Program-made: the position numbers and the translations under genes
Part shown: positions 1-5,434 of the stretch, piece by piece
Layout: each line of letters begins with the position of its first letter
Numbering within the stretch: position 1 is the stretch's first letter
Notes under the pieces: generated by a model
The model's database searches: none
Told to the model about the DNA's origin: nothing
The model's input: the letters and a program-made list of their open reading frames with translations, nothing else
Origin: Ruminococcaceae bacterium BL-6
Lineage (GTDB): Bacteria > Bacillota > Clostridia > Oscillospirales > Acutalibacteraceae
Assembly (NCBI GenBank): GCA_902810075.1
Contig: LR778135.1
Span: 3,286,001 to 3,350,000 of the forward strand
Length of the DNA stretch: 64,000 bases
Reading direction: 5' to 3'

Positions 1-1817
1 TCGTAATACTCTTTCGACCGGAATTTGCAGAGGGCGGCGAACATGGAGCCGTCGTTCATATTGTGGCCGTAAAGGATGGAGTGTCTGGCGGAAAAGCCCT
101 CCCGGATCCGGGAATCCATGAAAATCGCGCCGACGATGTTCTTGCTTTTATAAAAAGTATGGTCCAGATAATAGGCGTTGTCTTTTCCCTGCACGACGGG
201 GTAGCTCAATTGGGTATCCGGCAGGCGCACCCAGCCGACCGCGTCGCCGTTCTGGGCGGCCAGCTTCTGATAATCGAAGGAAAACGGCTTTTCCGCAGCG
301 CTTGCGCTCTTCTGCGCCATATCCTTCACGGGGTCGGAAGCCACCGTTTGGGCGGCCTTCTGATATTCCCTGCCGGCGCTTTGATAACGGGCGTATGCCG
401 AATAAAACCTCACGCAGCAGACGGTGAGCACGATCAGGCAGACGGCCGCCGTCACCAGCTTCCAGCGCCGGCGGAGCATCCGCCCCAGCCTTCTGACGGC
501 GGGCAGAAATTTTGCGGCATAGAAGGGTATCGCGGCCCCAAGCGGTCTGCCGCCTTCCGCCGGCGCAAGCGGGGAAAGCGGAATGGCCCCGGGGCCCGCT
601 CCGTCCTGTTGCGCCCCGGGCGGCAGGGCCGGGCCGCTGGTTTCAGCCGCGGCTTCGGCTTCCGTTCCCCGCGCAAAAGCGGGCCGGGCCGGCGCCATGG
701 AGAAGGCGGAGACCGCCGCGACGATTGGGACGGACAGGATGACGCCGAGGCTGCCGGAAAACGCCTGCATGATTTCGATCCCGATCCCGTAGGAATTGAT
801 GATCTGGATATAGGACAGGTCATAGACGTAATTCGACACCAGCATGGTGATGGAGCCGCCCGCAAAAGCCAGAATCAGCGTGGTGGACATGGTGCCCATC
901 ATGTCGCGCCCGACGTTGATGCCCGACGCGAACAGCTCCCGCCTGCTCAGGGAAGGATTCTTCTCGTGGATCTCGTTGATCGTGGAGGCGACGGACATCG
1001 CCACATCCATCGCGGCGCCGAGGGAGGCGATCAGCAGCCCGGAAAAGAGCAGGCCCCCCACCTGTATTTTGCTGCTCTCCGCCAGAAACAGCAGGTTTTC
1101 GATGTCGGACACGTTGTATCCGGAAATTCCGGAAAAGTACCCGAAGCCGGTCGCCGCCGCGCCCGCGATGACGACGGCCGCAACCGTGCCGATGATCGAG
1201 CAGGCCGTCTTTTTCGACGGGCCGCCGATCAGGTACATCGTCACCAGCGTCGTGACGGCCGCCACGAGCACGGCCGCCCAGAACGGGGAGAATCCCCGGA
1301 GCACCAGGGGCAGATAAAGCCAAAAGATACACGCCAGGGTGAAAATCAGGCTGACGGAGGATTTCAGGCCCTGCTTCCCGGCAATCAGGCAGAGGACCAG
1401 GAAGAACAGGAACACGAAAGCATAGATGACGCCTTCCCGGTCGGCGTTGTAGACCGAGGTGACCGAAATATCCCCGGAAACGCTCTGGATCGCGATCACC
1501 TTCATGCCGGGCTTGCAGCCCGCGCCGAACAGATATCCGGCCGCGCTGGTGGCGTCGACCGTCTGTCCCTTTTTGGGGCCGGTGAGCATGAGCAGGCGCA
1601 CCTGCTGCTCGCCGTAGCGGCGGCCGTCCTCCTGAATGTTGTCCTTCACGACCTCCACCACCCTGGCGCGCTCGAACGTGCGCCCCACGGAGGTGACCAG
1701 CTCGGGCTTCTGCACCTGGTTGATAAAATACAGGAAAACGAAAAATCCCGCCGCCAGAAGGGCGATGACCGCCCTTCGCCGGTTTGCCTTTTTATCTCCG
1801 AACAGTCTCGTCATCAT
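1..1817 (-). CDS. YibE/F-like membrane protein fused to a class B-type sortase (partial, C-terminus beyond window)
   Basis: The frame is open from an ATG at 1817 (a second ATG follows directly) to the left edge, about 605 codons. Residues 1-370 form a polytopic membrane region resembling YibE/F proteins: an N-terminal membrane segment, an extracytoplasmic beta-rich stretch, then about seven hydrophobic helices. A low-complexity Ala/Pro/Gly linker (about 370-430) and a basic stretch lead to another membrane helix (about 453-471). From about residue 500 the sequence reads as a sortase: GWVRLPDTQLSYPVVQG, then YYLDHTF, then the LYGHNM motif with the family's catalytic His at about residue 585. 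The catalytic Cys and Arg lie outside the window. I followed the frame codon by codon through the linker and found no stop or frameshift. The upstream neighbour on the same strand encodes a protein with a sortase-type signal. The fusion architecture is unfamiliar to me; class B is inferred from the His motif. Confidence 0.85.
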   Translation of the reverse strand, partial: MMTRLFGDKKANRRRAVIALLAAGFFVFLYFINQVQKPELVTSVGRTFERARVVEVVKDNIQEDGRRYGEQQVRLLMLTGPKKGQTVDATSAAGYLFGAGCKPGMKVIAIQSVSGDISVTSVYNADREGVIYAFVFLFFLVLCLIAGKQGLKSSVSLIFTLACIFWLYLPLVLRGFSPFWAAVLVAAVTTLVTMYLIGGPSKKTACSIIGTVAAVVIAGAAATGFGYFSGISGYNVSDIENLLFLAESSKIQVGGLLFSGLLIASLGAAMDVAMSVASTINEIHEKNPSLSRRELFASGINVGRDMMGTMSTTLILAFAGGSITMLVSNYVYDLSYIQIINSYGIGIEIMQAFSGSLGVILSVPIVAAVSAFSMAPARPAFARGTEAEAAAETSGPALPPGAQQDGAGPGAIPLSPLAPAEGGRPLGAAIPFYAAKFLPAVRRLGRMLRRRWKLVTAAVCLIVLTVCCVRFYSAYARYQSAGREYQKAAQTVASDPVKDMAQKSASAAEKPFSFDYQKLAAQNGDAVGWVRLPDTQLSYPVVQGKDNAYYLDHTFYKSKNIVGAIFMDSRIREGFSARHSILYGHNMNDGSMFAALCKFRSKEYY

Positions 1818-1945: not shown

Positions 1946-3694
1946 TTATTTGCTGGCTCTGCTTCTTTTCTCTTTCAAAGCGGCAAGGCCGACTGCGGCA
2001 AGGCCAAGCGCGGAAATCGCCGCAAGAATTCCGGTAGCGGTCAGATCGGTATTGTCCCCGGTCTGCGGAGCGCCGTCATTTCCCGCACCGTTCTGGGTGT
2101 TTTTCGCCGCCGTATTGGCAACCTTCGGCGTGCGGTCCACCGTCTTTTCGATGGTGAAGGTGGTGTCGATCTGGCTCGTTTTCCCGTCGACGATGCTGTA
2201 GGTGGAGATGCTGAAATTCTGATTGTCAACGGAAATCACCGAGTAGCTCGGGTGCCAGTTCTGGTTCCGGTAAGCGATGAAGTCCTGCTGCTGGGGAATC
2301 AGCTCGTAGAACTTGCTGCCGCTGGCGGAGTTCGCGGTCATGTACAGGGTGCCCTGCGGGTTCACGACCTTCGCCGATTTGTTGCCGGTGATGGCATAGG
2401 CCTCGTTCCCCTTCAGAAATTCCTTGTTGGCGGCGACGGCGGCCGCGTCACCCTCTTTGGGATAATACGGAGACACCTTCCCGGTGGATTTATCGACCAC
2501 GTTGTCCCAGTCGAACGTGCCGTCGGCCAGCTTGTGCGCGTCATAGGCGGGGTGCGTCTTGCCGTCGCCCTGAAGCAGATAGCTGCGGGAGTAGCTGTGG
2601 TCGTGGCCCTGAAGCACCACATCCACATCGTACTTGTCGAGGATGGGGGTCAGCTGCGTGCGCAGCACCATGCCGTCCGATTCCGAATGATCCGCGCCGC
2701 TGCCGTAAATGTCCTGGTGGAACATCACGATCCTCCAGCGGGTGTTGGGGTTCGCTGCGACCGCTTTTTTCAGAAGGGCCTCATGGTCGGCGCAGTTGTA
2801 GTTGTTGGTGTTCAGCACCACGAACAGCGCGTTCCCGTAAGTGTAGTAATACCCGTTCCCCGCAGGCGAGGGGCTGGTTTCCTCAGTGAAGGGGTTGGGG
2901 TTGTTGAAATGGAACGAATAGCTCTTGTTGGTGGCGTCGTGGTTGCCGATCGTCGTCGCGACCGGCAGGGACTTGAGGGCCGACGGATACAGGTAGCCGG
3001 CATATTCCATTTCGTTCCCGGCGTCGAGCCCGTCGACATTTTTGTTGATCTGGTCGCCCGCGGAAAGCGCGAAGCTGACTTCCGGATGGTTTTTCAGGGC
3101 GATGTTCAGCGTGGTGTTCCAGTTGAACGCGTCGTTTCTCGCGGCGGTGTTCAAGGCCGTTTTGTTTTCCAGGGTGTCCCCGGTGGAGACCTTCTGGCCT
3201 TTGGAAGCCCCGATCTGCGGGTCGCCGAAATACAGCATCTTAAAGCTGGAAAAGCTTTTCGTGGTGTATTTCGCCGGCTGGCTGTCCGCCCCGTTGACCC
3301 GGTAGGTGTAATAATAAGTCGTGTTCTCCTTGAGCCCCGTGGCGGTCGCTTTGTTGGAGTAATAGCCGGAGATGGCGGGCGAAGCGGAGCCGTTAAAGGT
3401 TTTCGCATCGCTCATGTCCGCCTTTGTCGCAAGCCGCACCACCGGGGTGGCCGTCGCGCCGGCTTTCGAATACCAGCCGAAGTTCAGTTCGCTCGCGTTT
3501 CTTCCCGGAGTCAGCGAAACCTGTTCGTAATCGGCACTGACGGACGTTGCCCATTGCTGGGTCCAGCTGGACCACGCCGAATCCTTGGTCGCGTCGGAAA
3601 AGTGCTCCGTTGCCGCAAAAGCACCGGTCGCGGACGACGCTGCCAGGCCGGCTGCCAGAACGCCGCATAAGACCATTCTGGTTCTTTTTTTCAT
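1946..3694 (-). CDS. Cell-wall-anchored purple-acid-phosphatase-type metallophosphoesterase
   Basis: The 582-residue exported protein begins with a Sec signal peptide (MKKRTRMVLCGVLAAGLAAS, cleavage near AFA-A, residue 27). A purple-acid-phosphatase N-terminal fibronectin-like domain follows, then a calcineurin-type metallophosphatase domain. The metal-ligand motifs appear in order: GDPQIG (about 158), GDQINKN, GNHD (about 251), FHQD (about 325) and GHDHS (about 363). The C-terminus carries a sorting signal: APQTGD (about 541), a hydrophobic helix and a basic KEKRSRASK tail. The ATG at 3694 was chosen because a strong AGGAGG site precedes it and the signal peptide starts there, although the frame is open further upstream. 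It should hydrolyse phosphomonoesters outside the cell while covalently attached to peptidoglycan. The sortase fusion gene follows on the same strand, which suggests an enzyme-substrate pair. Confidence 0.9.
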   Translation of the reverse strand: MKKRTRMVLCGVLAAGLAASSATGAFAATEHFSDATKDSAWSSWTQQWATSVSADYEQVSLTPGRNASELNFGWYSKAGATATPVVRLATKADMSDAKTFNGSASPAISGYYSNKATATGLKENTTYYYTYRVNGADSQPAKYTTKSFSSFKMLYFGDPQIGASKGQKVSTGDTLENKTALNTAARNDAFNWNTTLNIALKNHPEVSFALSAGDQINKNVDGLDAGNEMEYAGYLYPSALKSLPVATTIGNHDATNKSYSFHFNNPNPFTEETSPSPAGNGYYYTYGNALFVVLNTNNYNCADHEALLKKAVAANPNTRWRIVMFHQDIYGSGADHSESDGMVLRTQLTPILDKYDVDVVLQGHDHSYSRSYLLQGDGKTHPAYDAHKLADGTFDWDNVVDKSTGKVSPYYPKEGDAAAVAANKEFLKGNEAYAITGNKSAKVVNPQGTLYMTANSASGSKFYELIPQQQDFIAYRNQNWHPSYSVISVDNQNFSISTYSIVDGKTSQIDTTFTIEKTVDRTPKVANTAAKNTQNGAGNDGAPQTGDNTDLTATGILAAISALGLAAVGLAALKEKRSRASK

Positions 3695-3742
3695 GTTGTC
3701 CTCCTTCAAATCTTTCCGTTTTTTTGTCTTTCGTACAGTTTC

Positions 3743-3771
3743 AGTATAAAAAAGGCAGGAATCGATTGCAA
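3743..3771 (-). promoter_or_regulatory. Sigma-A-type promoter of the phosphatase gene
   Basis: On the minus strand TTGCAA (3766-3771) and TATACT (3743-3748) are separated by exactly 17 bp, about 50 nt upstream of the phosphatase start codon. Confidence 0.6.
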
Positions 3772-3785
3772 GGAATTCACAGAAT

Positions 3786-3802
3786 CTTAAATCAAGTTTA
3801 AG
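3786..3802. promoter_or_regulatory. Inverted repeat upstream of the phosphatase -35 box
   Basis: CTTAAA-N5-TTTAAG is a perfect 6-bp inverted repeat ending about 15 bp upstream of the -35 hexamer. The position fits an activator or repressor site. The binding protein is not identifiable from the sequence. Confidence 0.35.
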
Positions 3803-3925
3803 CTGGATTTTACATTCGCTTTTCCGCCCGCGGCAATTCCGTTTCAAACGGCCGGCCTCCCTACCTGACGCGGGAAGGGCCGGCGAAGCTGTTTGCGATC
3901 CCATTGAAATGCCGGAAATAAAAAT

Positions 3926-5305
3926 TTAGAGCGTCTTTTCCGCAAGCCTTGCGAGCGGGCTGCGCTCCACCTGGCTCAGCGTCACATGCCCGGTCAGGGG
4001 TGATTCCTTCAGCCGCTCCACCAAATACACCAGCCCGTTGGAGCGGGAGTCGACCAGCGCGTTGTCGATCTGGTTGTCGGTGGGGTCGCCGATGAAGATG
4101 AATTTCGAGTTCTGCCCGGCCCTTGTCAGCATCAGCTTCGCGATGTGCGGCGTCGTTTCCTGCGCCTCATCCACGATTACGATCGCGTCGGAAAGCGTCC
4201 GGCCGCGCATATAGGTAAAGGTCTTCATGTCGATGACGCCGCTGCTCTTGAAGTTTTCGATGATGGAATCGACCGAAACGTTATCCTCCGAGCAGTTCTT
4301 TCTCGGCTTCCGGTTGTACCCGCAGTACATCAGGCTTTCAAACGCGTCGTAGAAGCTGCCCATCCAGGGGCGCAGCTTTTCCTCCTCGTTTCCGGGGAGG
4401 AACCCGATGTCGTCGCCCGCGGGGACGACCGGGCGGACGAAGACGATTTTGCGGTACGCGCGCTGTTCGATCACCTTTTCCAGCGCGACGGCGGTCGCGA
4501 GGATGGTTTTGCCCGAGCCCGCGCCGCCCGTGACGGAGACGAATTTGACGGCGTCGTCCATCATGAGCTCGAACGCCATTTTCTGCTCCAGGTTCAGGGG
4601 ATGCAGGCCCCACGCGGACCGGTTCTCGAACTGCAGCGGCTCCAGCTTTTCCCCGTTGAACCGGACGAGGGACGAGCGCGCCGGGTCGTCTTTCGCGTGG
4701 ATCAGCAGGAACTGGTTCGGGTAAAGCTTGATCCTTTTCGGGCAGGGCAGCCCGCCGTCGTCATATATTTTGTCGATGTCCTTCGACGGCAGCGTGGCCT
4801 GCGCATGGCCCCGGTACAGATCGTCGAGGACGATGCGGTCGTTCTCGTAATCCTCCGTCTGAAGGCCGAGCGCCTCCGCCTTCAGGCGCATGCAGATATC
4901 TTTGGAAACGAGGATCGTCGCGCTTTCCGGCTCCCGTTTCCGGATGCTGAGCGTGGTGAGAAGGATCCGGTTGTCGTTTTTCTTCAGGTCCAGTTCGTCG
5001 GCGAATTCCGGCATGTTATGATAGCCGTTCAGCTCGATCTTCAAAAGGATGTTTTTCGTGAGCGCGATCCCATCCTGAATGCTCTGCTGCGCTTTCCCCT
5101 CTACGATCTTCGAAAGCTCGCGCACCGCCTGCCGGGCCTGGCAGCCGCACAGCCCTTCCCTCGATTTCAGGGAATCGAGCTCTTCCAGAACAACCATGGG
5201 CAAAATCACGTTGTTCCCTTTAAAGCTGTAAATGCACACCGGGTCGTGCAGCAATACGTTGGTATCCAGCACATAATTTTTTCTGTTTTCTGTTTTCTGC
5301 TGCAT
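3926..5305 (-). CDS. PhoH-family ATPase with N-terminal PIN domain
   Basis: The 459-residue cytoplasmic protein has an N-terminal PIN nuclease-like domain (YVLDTNVLLHDP at 11-22) and a C-terminal PhoH-type P-loop domain. The Walker A motif GGAGSGKT is at about 257-264 and the Walker B-like VDEAQE at about 377. This is the YlaK/PhoH2 arrangement, for which ATP-dependent RNA unwinding coupled to RNA cleavage has been reported. The start at 5305 gives the usual family N-terminus. The frame continues upstream, but that extension is rich in non-conserved residues. The ribosome site is weak (GGGGG about 9 nt before the ATG). The gene is transcribed towards the phosphatase gene, with about 230 bp between them. 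The cellular role of the family in Clostridia is poorly defined. Confidence 0.9.
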   Translation of the reverse strand: MQQKTENRKNYVLDTNVLLHDPVCIYSFKGNNVILPMVVLEELDSLKSREGLCGCQARQAVRELSKIVEGKAQQSIQDGIALTKNILLKIELNGYHNMPEFADELDLKKNDNRILLTTLSIRKREPESATILVSKDICMRLKAEALGLQTEDYENDRIVLDDLYRGHAQATLPSKDIDKIYDDGGLPCPKRIKLYPNQFLLIHAKDDPARSSLVRFNGEKLEPLQFENRSAWGLHPLNLEQKMAFELMMDDAVKFVSVTGGAGSGKTILATAVALEKVIEQRAYRKIVFVRPVVPAGDDIGFLPGNEEEKLRPWMGSFYDAFESLMYCGYNRKPRKNCSEDNVSVDSIIENFKSSGVIDMKTFTYMRGRTLSDAIVIVDEAQETTPHIAKLMLTRAGQNSKFIFIGDPTDNQIDNALVDSRSNGLVYLVERLKESPLTGHVTLSQVERSPLARLAEKTL

Positions 5306-5434
5306 GGAACAGCCCCCAAAATCACAAATTTTTTGATGGTCCCGCCCGGCGGGAAAAATCTTCCCAACCCGAACGGCGCGGAAATCCCTTTTGCCGAAAA
5401 ACAAAATGACACCACATCGGTTCCGGATGCAATG

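Follow-up and report, generated by a model that had tools for sequence, protein, structure and literature searches.

A class B sortase in one chain with a YibE/F membrane protein, next to a probably anchored phosphatase: a possible phosphate-starvation surface system

At the left end of the window, by which we mean the whole stretch of 64,000 nucleotides analysed here (positions 3,286,001-3,350,000 of a genome assembled as one contig of 3,435,529 bases), a polytopic YibE/F membrane domain and a sortase domain are read as one polypeptide. This raises the question of whether such a protein is real and, if so, what its two parts would do together. The original prediction held that YibE/F proteins have no assigned function, which agrees with their placement in class 9, as family 9.B.141, in PMC3924187. 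It also named the joined architecture as one not known from any described system, and our search of the PubMed Central literature (titles, abstracts and passages) returned no description of it.

The fusion frame is open without interruption from the ATG at position 1817 to position 1 on the minus strand, and it overruns the left window edge by 277 bases (Table 1). The full frame of 697 residues passes the cut-offs for both domains, in agreement with the first reading of one uninterrupted frame. The YibE_F match scores 262.6 bits against a gathering score of 27.2 (E 4.5e-78) and covers profile positions 1-241 of 241, and the Pfam Sortase match (residues 531-693, 38.2 bits, E 1.4e-09) is likewise over its cut-off. 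What had been called a class B-like sortase can now be read as class B, since NCBIfam model TIGR03064 matches residues 453-689 at 187.9 bits, above its cut-off of 153.75. The catalytic cysteine and arginine, sought by extending the sequence leftwards, were both found close to the C-terminus, in a stretch beyond the window that reads TLSTC-VSDNRDM-RFVIHAK; the catalytic residues are H585 in LYGHNM, C678 in TLSTC and R686. The nearest solved structure by sequence is Lmo2181, followed mostly by chains titled sortase B.

Table 1. Features of the YibE/F-sortase locus (window coordinates)
Feature	Position	Strand	Remarks
YibE/F-sortase B fusion gene	1..1817	-	697 aa; the window holds all but the last 92 codons and the stop, which reach L005:15724
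Class B sortase catalytic domain, in-window part	1..263	-	His585 at 63-65; Cys678 and Arg686 outside the window
Sortase membrane anchor helix, residues 453-475	393..461	-	Hydropathy profile and charge counts
Ala/Pro-rich linker, residues 375-452	462..695	-	Predicted cytosolic; 9 K/R in flanks
YibE_F domain (PF07907), residues 131-372	702..1427	-	Pfam; seven predicted membrane helices
OB-like beta domain, residues 46-125, predicted to be extracellular and set between membrane helices 1 and 2	1443..1682	-	AlphaFold2 model, pLDDT 87.7
Secreted purple-acid-phosphatase-like metallophosphoesterase, 582 aa	1946..3694	-	Pfam Pur_ac_phosph_N and Metallophos
Probable sorting signal at the C-terminus (APQTGD, hydrophobic stretch, KEKRSRASK)	1949..2071	-	P-x-TG, hydrophobic stretch and positive tail all present
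Promoter-like site, TTGCAA-17-TATACT	3743..3771	-	Same place in five aligned fusion-bearing sequences
PHO-box-like array, 11-base-spaced repeats	3775..3814	-	Just upstream of the promoter-like site

The topology was taken from an AlphaFold2 model of the YibE/F part alone (134 sequences, pLDDT 87.7, pTM 0.81), the model of the whole fusion being poor (pLDDT 58.7, pTM 0.35). In the former, one helix is followed by the extracellular beta domain and then by seven long helices. Foldseek listed OB-fold rows for the domain at residues 46-125, none of which reached significance. Together with hydropathy and charge counts, this model predicts a cytosolic linker and a ninth helix that would put the sortase outside. 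Residues K203, D271, E282 and D305 are invariant in the YibE/F part, and Met 270, 307 and 310, beside D271 and D305, are nearly so.

A frameshift or assembly error near positions 500-720 was the evident alternative to a genuine fusion. It is ruled out for practical purposes by the same joined frame in 24 listed protein clusters and in four of 398 genomes of the family. The architecture search covered 5.8 billion proteins, of which the best 120 of 2509 matches were listed; among these are 24 full-length two-domain fusions (P0004-P0027) of 651-780 residues and 51-99% identity. The three closest (P0004-P0006), 94-99% identical to the query, may be of the same species and were left out of the alignment, which holds the query and the other 21 fusions (54-77% identical to it). 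Of the 178 columns that do not vary in these 22 rows, 129 belong to YibE/F and 46, among them H585, C678 and R686, to the sortase; region 381-500, where the linker varies in length and sequence, holds three. Because so many columns are invariant the fusion is not a chance frame. Two other proteins of the same list look chimeric by eye, which lends some colour to the idea of an artefact: P0031 has a MutL-like N-terminus, and P0068, a phosphatase and YibE/F in one protein, is joined at a shared NSASG/TSAAG stretch as in an assembly chimera. P0068 had at first passed for a second natural fusion, but neither protein was accepted as one or counted as evidence. The source genome is a single contig and the joined frame recurs in four genomes as well as the listed clusters, so that an artefact is extremely improbable. 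The YibE/F-sortase fusion is a real, conserved protein.

The four carriers in the family are the source genome, two of the three other members of its genus that were drawn, and one member of another genus. In a search of 297 genomes of the order at E <= 1e-60, whose matches do not include the other three carriers, the fusion was seen in the source genome only. When the YibE/F part was searched against 398 genomes of the phylum, 117 had matches at E <= 1e-35, and the sole other match in a frame of more than 600 residues (G635) is YibE_F alone. Named carriers are Faecalispora jeddahensis, Clostridium sporosphaeroides DSM 1294 and 'Amazonia massiliensis', the source bacterium being a relative of Faecalispora.

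Directly upstream of the fusion gene, at 128 bases and on the same strand, lies the gene of a phosphatase whose Pur_ac_phosph_N and Metallophos matches (45.4 and 53.6 bits) are over the Pfam cut-offs. The expectation that a protein with a sorting signal would adjoin the fusion was borne out by its APQTGD tail. We grade this signal as probable because its Gram_pos_anchor score of 15 bits is under the cut-off of 20; it is nevertheless the best of the 14 matches in the source genome (E <= 10), all of which fall below the Pfam cut-off. A phosphatase with a P-x-TG tail (TPKTGD, APLTGD or APQTGD) is the upstream neighbour on the same strand in all five distinct fusion genomes examined. Residues D158, D214, N251, H326, H364 and H366, of metal-ligand type, are invariant in 23 aligned partner phosphatases. 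The tyrosine of the GDxxY motif is the ligand that gives purple acid phosphatases their purple colour, and in its place the protein reads GDQIN; the label is for this reason kept to 'purple-acid-phosphatase-like'. Directly upstream of the phosphatase is a gene for a protein with PIN and PhoH domains (window 3926-5404, minus strand).

The whole source genome holds two sortases. Among the 14 match sites there is only one other well-built P-x-TG tail, that of a 322-residue GPKTGD protein without a Pfam match, which lies some 14 kb away from the second sortase. The latter (L006:5291-6295, minus strand) is also of class B, with 177 bits, and lies among genes that by eye resemble those of type II secretion or type IV pili. 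Taken together, it is likely that the fused sortase anchors the neighbouring phosphatase to the peptidoglycan.

The pairing of YibE/F with a phosphatase extends beyond the fusion. In 200 genomes of the family, the same draw being used for both searches, a phosphatase lies within 4 kb of YibE/F in 16 of 22 loci (YibE/F at E <= 1e-54), against 0.08 expected (P 3e-36). In the three examined of the remaining six another large surface protein adjoins YibE/F, with a Metallophos match in L130, a weak PHP match in L131 and only a weak DUF3604 match in L134. By eye, no phosphatase match adjoins any of the more remote YibE/F matches in these 200 genomes.

We mapped 78 YibE/F frames in 77 loci, taken top down from the match lists (20 of the 31 listed order rows and 20 phylum rows), so that the linked proportion among them is not an unbiased rate. 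A tree was built of 87 rows, namely 76 locus rows (two duplicates dropped) and 11 listed fusions whose neighbourhood is not known, with partner labels assigned by hand. A partner is present in 54 of the 76 locus rows (five fused, 40 calcineurin-type and nine large PHP/OB-type) and absent in 22. All 54 partnered rows and the 11 listed fusions fall to the same side of a single branch (SH-aLRT 97). There the 16 fusions form one clade (SH-aLRT 94), and two of the four loci adjoining it have a phosphatase with SLH domains. The source genome has two further YibE/F copies, and its fused copy, in the phosphoesterase-linked clade, is distinct from both. A Pfam scan of 26 of the 54 partners found Metallophos in 18 and not in eight; the remainder rest on tblastn similarity.

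The eight partners without Metallophos (L131, L134, L172, L173, L174, L175, L177 and L188), neighbours of 1.5-2 thousand residues, had been called phosphatase-like by similarity, an identity that we reject. Matches to PHP fall below the curated score in L131, L172, L174 and L175, and Pfam identified no catalytic domain in L134 (a weak DUF3604 row only), L173, L177 and L188. The nine tree labels 'PHP/OB' (L131, L134, L172-L177 and L188, with L176 outside the Pfam scan) are accordingly not counted as phosphatase. Seven of these (L131, L134, L172, L174, L175, L177 and L188) make up a second class of YibE/F neighbours, surface proteins of 1.7-2.0 thousand residues with OB-fold (tRNA_anti-codon/DUF5689) rows; chitobiase-C-like repeats occur in five of the seven, weak PHP matches in four, and a sorting-type tail or SLH domains in five. 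As to unpaired YibE/F genes, some lie near FUR-family regulators (L186, confirmed by Pfam; L189 and L197, by eye) and others near nicotinate phosphoribosyltransferase-like genes (L147, L148 and L150, by eye).

The means of attachment is more variable than the pair. P-x-TG phosphatase tails such as NPTTGD, VPQTGD and NPKTGD are found, while other phosphatases carry SLH domains (L161, L162 and L167) or a cohesin together with a dockerin (L135): the anchor varies and the YibE/F-phosphatase pair stays. As many YibE/F-phosphoesterase loci have no fused sortase and use SLH or dockerin anchors instead, the phosphoesterase looks like the steady partner of YibE/F and the sortase like a later addition. 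For the same reason the proposal that YibE/F energises the sortase or delivers its substrate has become less likely, since YibE/F pairs with a phosphoesterase where no sortase is fused to it; we keep it as a rival.

C. luticellarii encodes the phosphatase, YibE/F and a class B sortase separately, in three genes that follow one another, YibE/F and SrtB lying 9 bases apart; despite the sortase nearby, its phosphatase lacks a P-x-TG tail. Since this SrtB is 30% identical to the fused sortase and this YibE/F falls outside the fusion clade, sortase and pair seem to have come to lie together on more than one occasion. A sortase-like gene of 148 bits, just below the 153.75 cut-off, lies divergently beside the pair in L137. 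It might be argued from C. luticellarii, and from the variable linker with its three invariant columns, that the fusion is passive, two neighbouring operon genes having become one frame whose parts work independently. We regard this as distinctly unlikely: the listed fusions stay joined over a span of 51-99% identity and form one clade, and the same distances in SrtB and YibE/F show that the C. luticellarii arrangement is not simply the ancestor.

The control region suggests when the pair might be expressed. The promoter-like site sits between the preceding PhoH/PIN gene and the phosphatase gene. Four-hexamer TGTAAA-like chains in steps of 10-11 bases gave a mean z of 2.11 in 21 upstream regions (six near copies dropped; consensus picked after the sequences had been viewed), 13 of them exceeding 1.5, against a mean z of 0.52, with 16% above 1.5, in 120 upstream regions of other frames at the same loci. 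TGTAAA, which corresponds to the TTTACA form of the Bacillus PHO box read on the opposite strand, came top among 60 permutations of its letters (2.2 against a median of 0.61). The 10-11 step scored 2.2, steps of 11-12 and 9-10 scored 1.56 and 1.07, and the other five 0.22-0.55. Canonical TT[ACT]A[CT]A pairs occur in three of 25 upstream regions, against 0.24 in shuffles, and Fur box patterns in none of the 23 scanned. The upstream regions of pstS, taken as a control, responded weakly (mean z of 1.13 over 16 rows, near copies included), the two pstS copies of the source genome scoring 3.3 and 0.0, and Tandem Repeats Finder reported no repeats in 3600-3960. On this evidence we lean slightly towards induction of the pair by a PhoB/PhoP-type regulator under phosphate shortage.

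What YibE/F itself does is the harder part of the question. The 50 rows listed in the structure comparison are pumps of RND/MmpL type, one of them bearing no more than the title 'a membrane protein', and this RND-like fold made kinship a candidate. With the YibE/F model Foldseek gave no row at E <= 0.001; hhalign against 30 ACR_tran halves gave E 0.31, the reversed control giving 0.071; and profile comparisons gave probabilities of 5.9% for SecF and 0.7% for MMPL. For lack of a significant row or profile match YibE/F is not filed under RND. An alignment of D271 with what we take to be the RND TM4 acidic motif was also dropped, as its E of 0.44 came from a poor 11-row cut and the alignment was gone with 30 rows.

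Our own hypothesis is that the YibE/F part is a transporter taking up the products of the phosphatase, phosphate or a dephosphorylated compound; the chances are a little against it, although we prefer it to the other roles considered. If YibE/F does take up such a product, the fusion would place enzyme and permease side by side. Most known RND relatives export, so a real RND-like arrangement would weaken the import reading. Export would take one of two forms, a metal ion (e.g. Mn) loading the secreted metallophosphoesterase, or a phosphorylated compound then hydrolysed by the enzyme. Calcineurin-like, PHP and Exo_endo_phos enzymes need metal, and the partners are of these metal-dependent types (calcineurin-like, weak PHP matches and one with Exo_endo_phos, by Pfam). 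The pumps in the structural rows, the nearly invariant methionines beside D271 and D305, and the FUR-family genes beside unpaired YibE/F in L186, L189 and L197 also speak for export. Against this, not one Cys or His is invariant in the YibE/F alignment, the FUR genes belong to loci outside the phosphoesterase-linked clade, and the RND kinship is not backed by sequence profiles, which leaves export an unlikely reading, though one of some weight.

In line with the original energising or delivery proposal, YibE/F might instead be a SecDF-like, ion-driven helper that pulls a surface protein out or hands it to the anchoring system. The fusion to a sortase would suit such a role, as would the topology of helix, extracellular domain and further helices with their RND-like arrangement, and the best SecF profile alignment (P 0.0064) lies at the segment after the extracellular domain. 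That alignment, however, has the low SecF probability given above and falls on other helices than the structural match; the identified partners are mostly phosphoesterases and not just any large surface protein; and SecD/SecF-family matches occur elsewhere in the source genome. We hold a SecDF-like role to be improbable.

Returning to the uptake hypothesis, we propose as best explanation a class B sortase in one chain with YibE/F, in a module that serves as a phosphate-starvation surface system with the anchored phosphatase beside YibE/F. In such a system phosphate shortage would lead a PhoB/PhoP-type regulator to switch on the phosphatase and fusion genes, the fused sortase would fix the phosphatase to peptidoglycan beside YibE/F, and YibE/F would handle, and perhaps import, the phosphate or dephosphorylated compound released. 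We give this account an even chance. It is weakened by the 22 of 76 locus rows with no phosphoesterase neighbour, some of them near FUR-family or NAPRTase-like genes. It is weakened further by the post hoc choice of TGTAAA, the low count of canonical PHO pairs and the weak pstS signal, and by the sub-cut-off sorting signal and the C. luticellarii phosphatase without a P-x-TG tail. It is tempting to go further and suggest that the YibE/F proteins of the whole clade are transporters for the products of surface phosphoesterases under phosphate starvation, the fusion being a self-assembling scavenging station in which the sortase nails the phosphatase over its own permease; this broader idea is doubtful. 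If true, it would give the orphan YibE/F family a first function and sortases a new use, that of positioning an enzyme over a membrane partner or transporter. The YibE/F-phosphoesterase pairing, the PHO-box-like array and the sortase fusion together make the function of this orphan family concretely testable.

Other frames in which a sortase is joined to a further domain were also seen. A class B-like sortase stands at the C-terminus of CinA in single frames of 939-1048 residues (L139:3529-6462, minus; L140:2925-6044, minus; L141:2215-5361, plus; L142:2024-4843, plus), all in relatives of the same family, with the order MoCF_biosynth, CinA_KH, CinA and then Sortase (Pfam in L140 and L142, by eye in L139 and L141); a cytosolic-type enzyme joined to an outside-facing sortase is odd. 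Beside such genes there is a second sortase-like frame with a SpoIID-like C-terminal domain (L139:1-3350, minus; L142:4889-7522, plus; L146:542-2935, minus; 26-28% identity by tblastn). By eye these frames seem to be without TLSTC, and Pfam, run on that of L142 only, gave SpoIID and no Sortase row. L145:3329-5152 (minus) is a single frame that starts at a contig edge and encodes SpaA domains, then a PQTGD tail and its hydrophobic stretch, and after these a sortase domain.

Three known systems can be compared with this locus. The purple acid phosphatases (Fe-Zn, plant; PDB 8brn, 4dhl) share Pur_ac_phosph_N and Metallophos with the fusion partner, but match it with about 32 bits only and differ by the GDxxY to GDQIN change. 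In RND membrane domains there are six helices per half, whereas YibE/F has eight predicted helices and no significant sequence-profile match to the RND, MmpL or SecDF domains. A precedent for the presumed anchoring is C. difficile SrtB (PMC4155245, PMC5569036), which is the single sortase of its genome, has seven or eight predicted substrates, and anchors CD2537, a 5'-nucleotidase/phosphoesterase, via SPKTG. SrtB and CD2537 resemble our locus in the profile match, the His/Cys/Arg residues, the N-terminal membrane helix, and a presumed substrate of phosphoesterase type with a P-x-TG tail. Unlike C. difficile SrtB, the fused sortase forms the C-terminal part of a polytopic membrane protein and has its presumed substrate next door.
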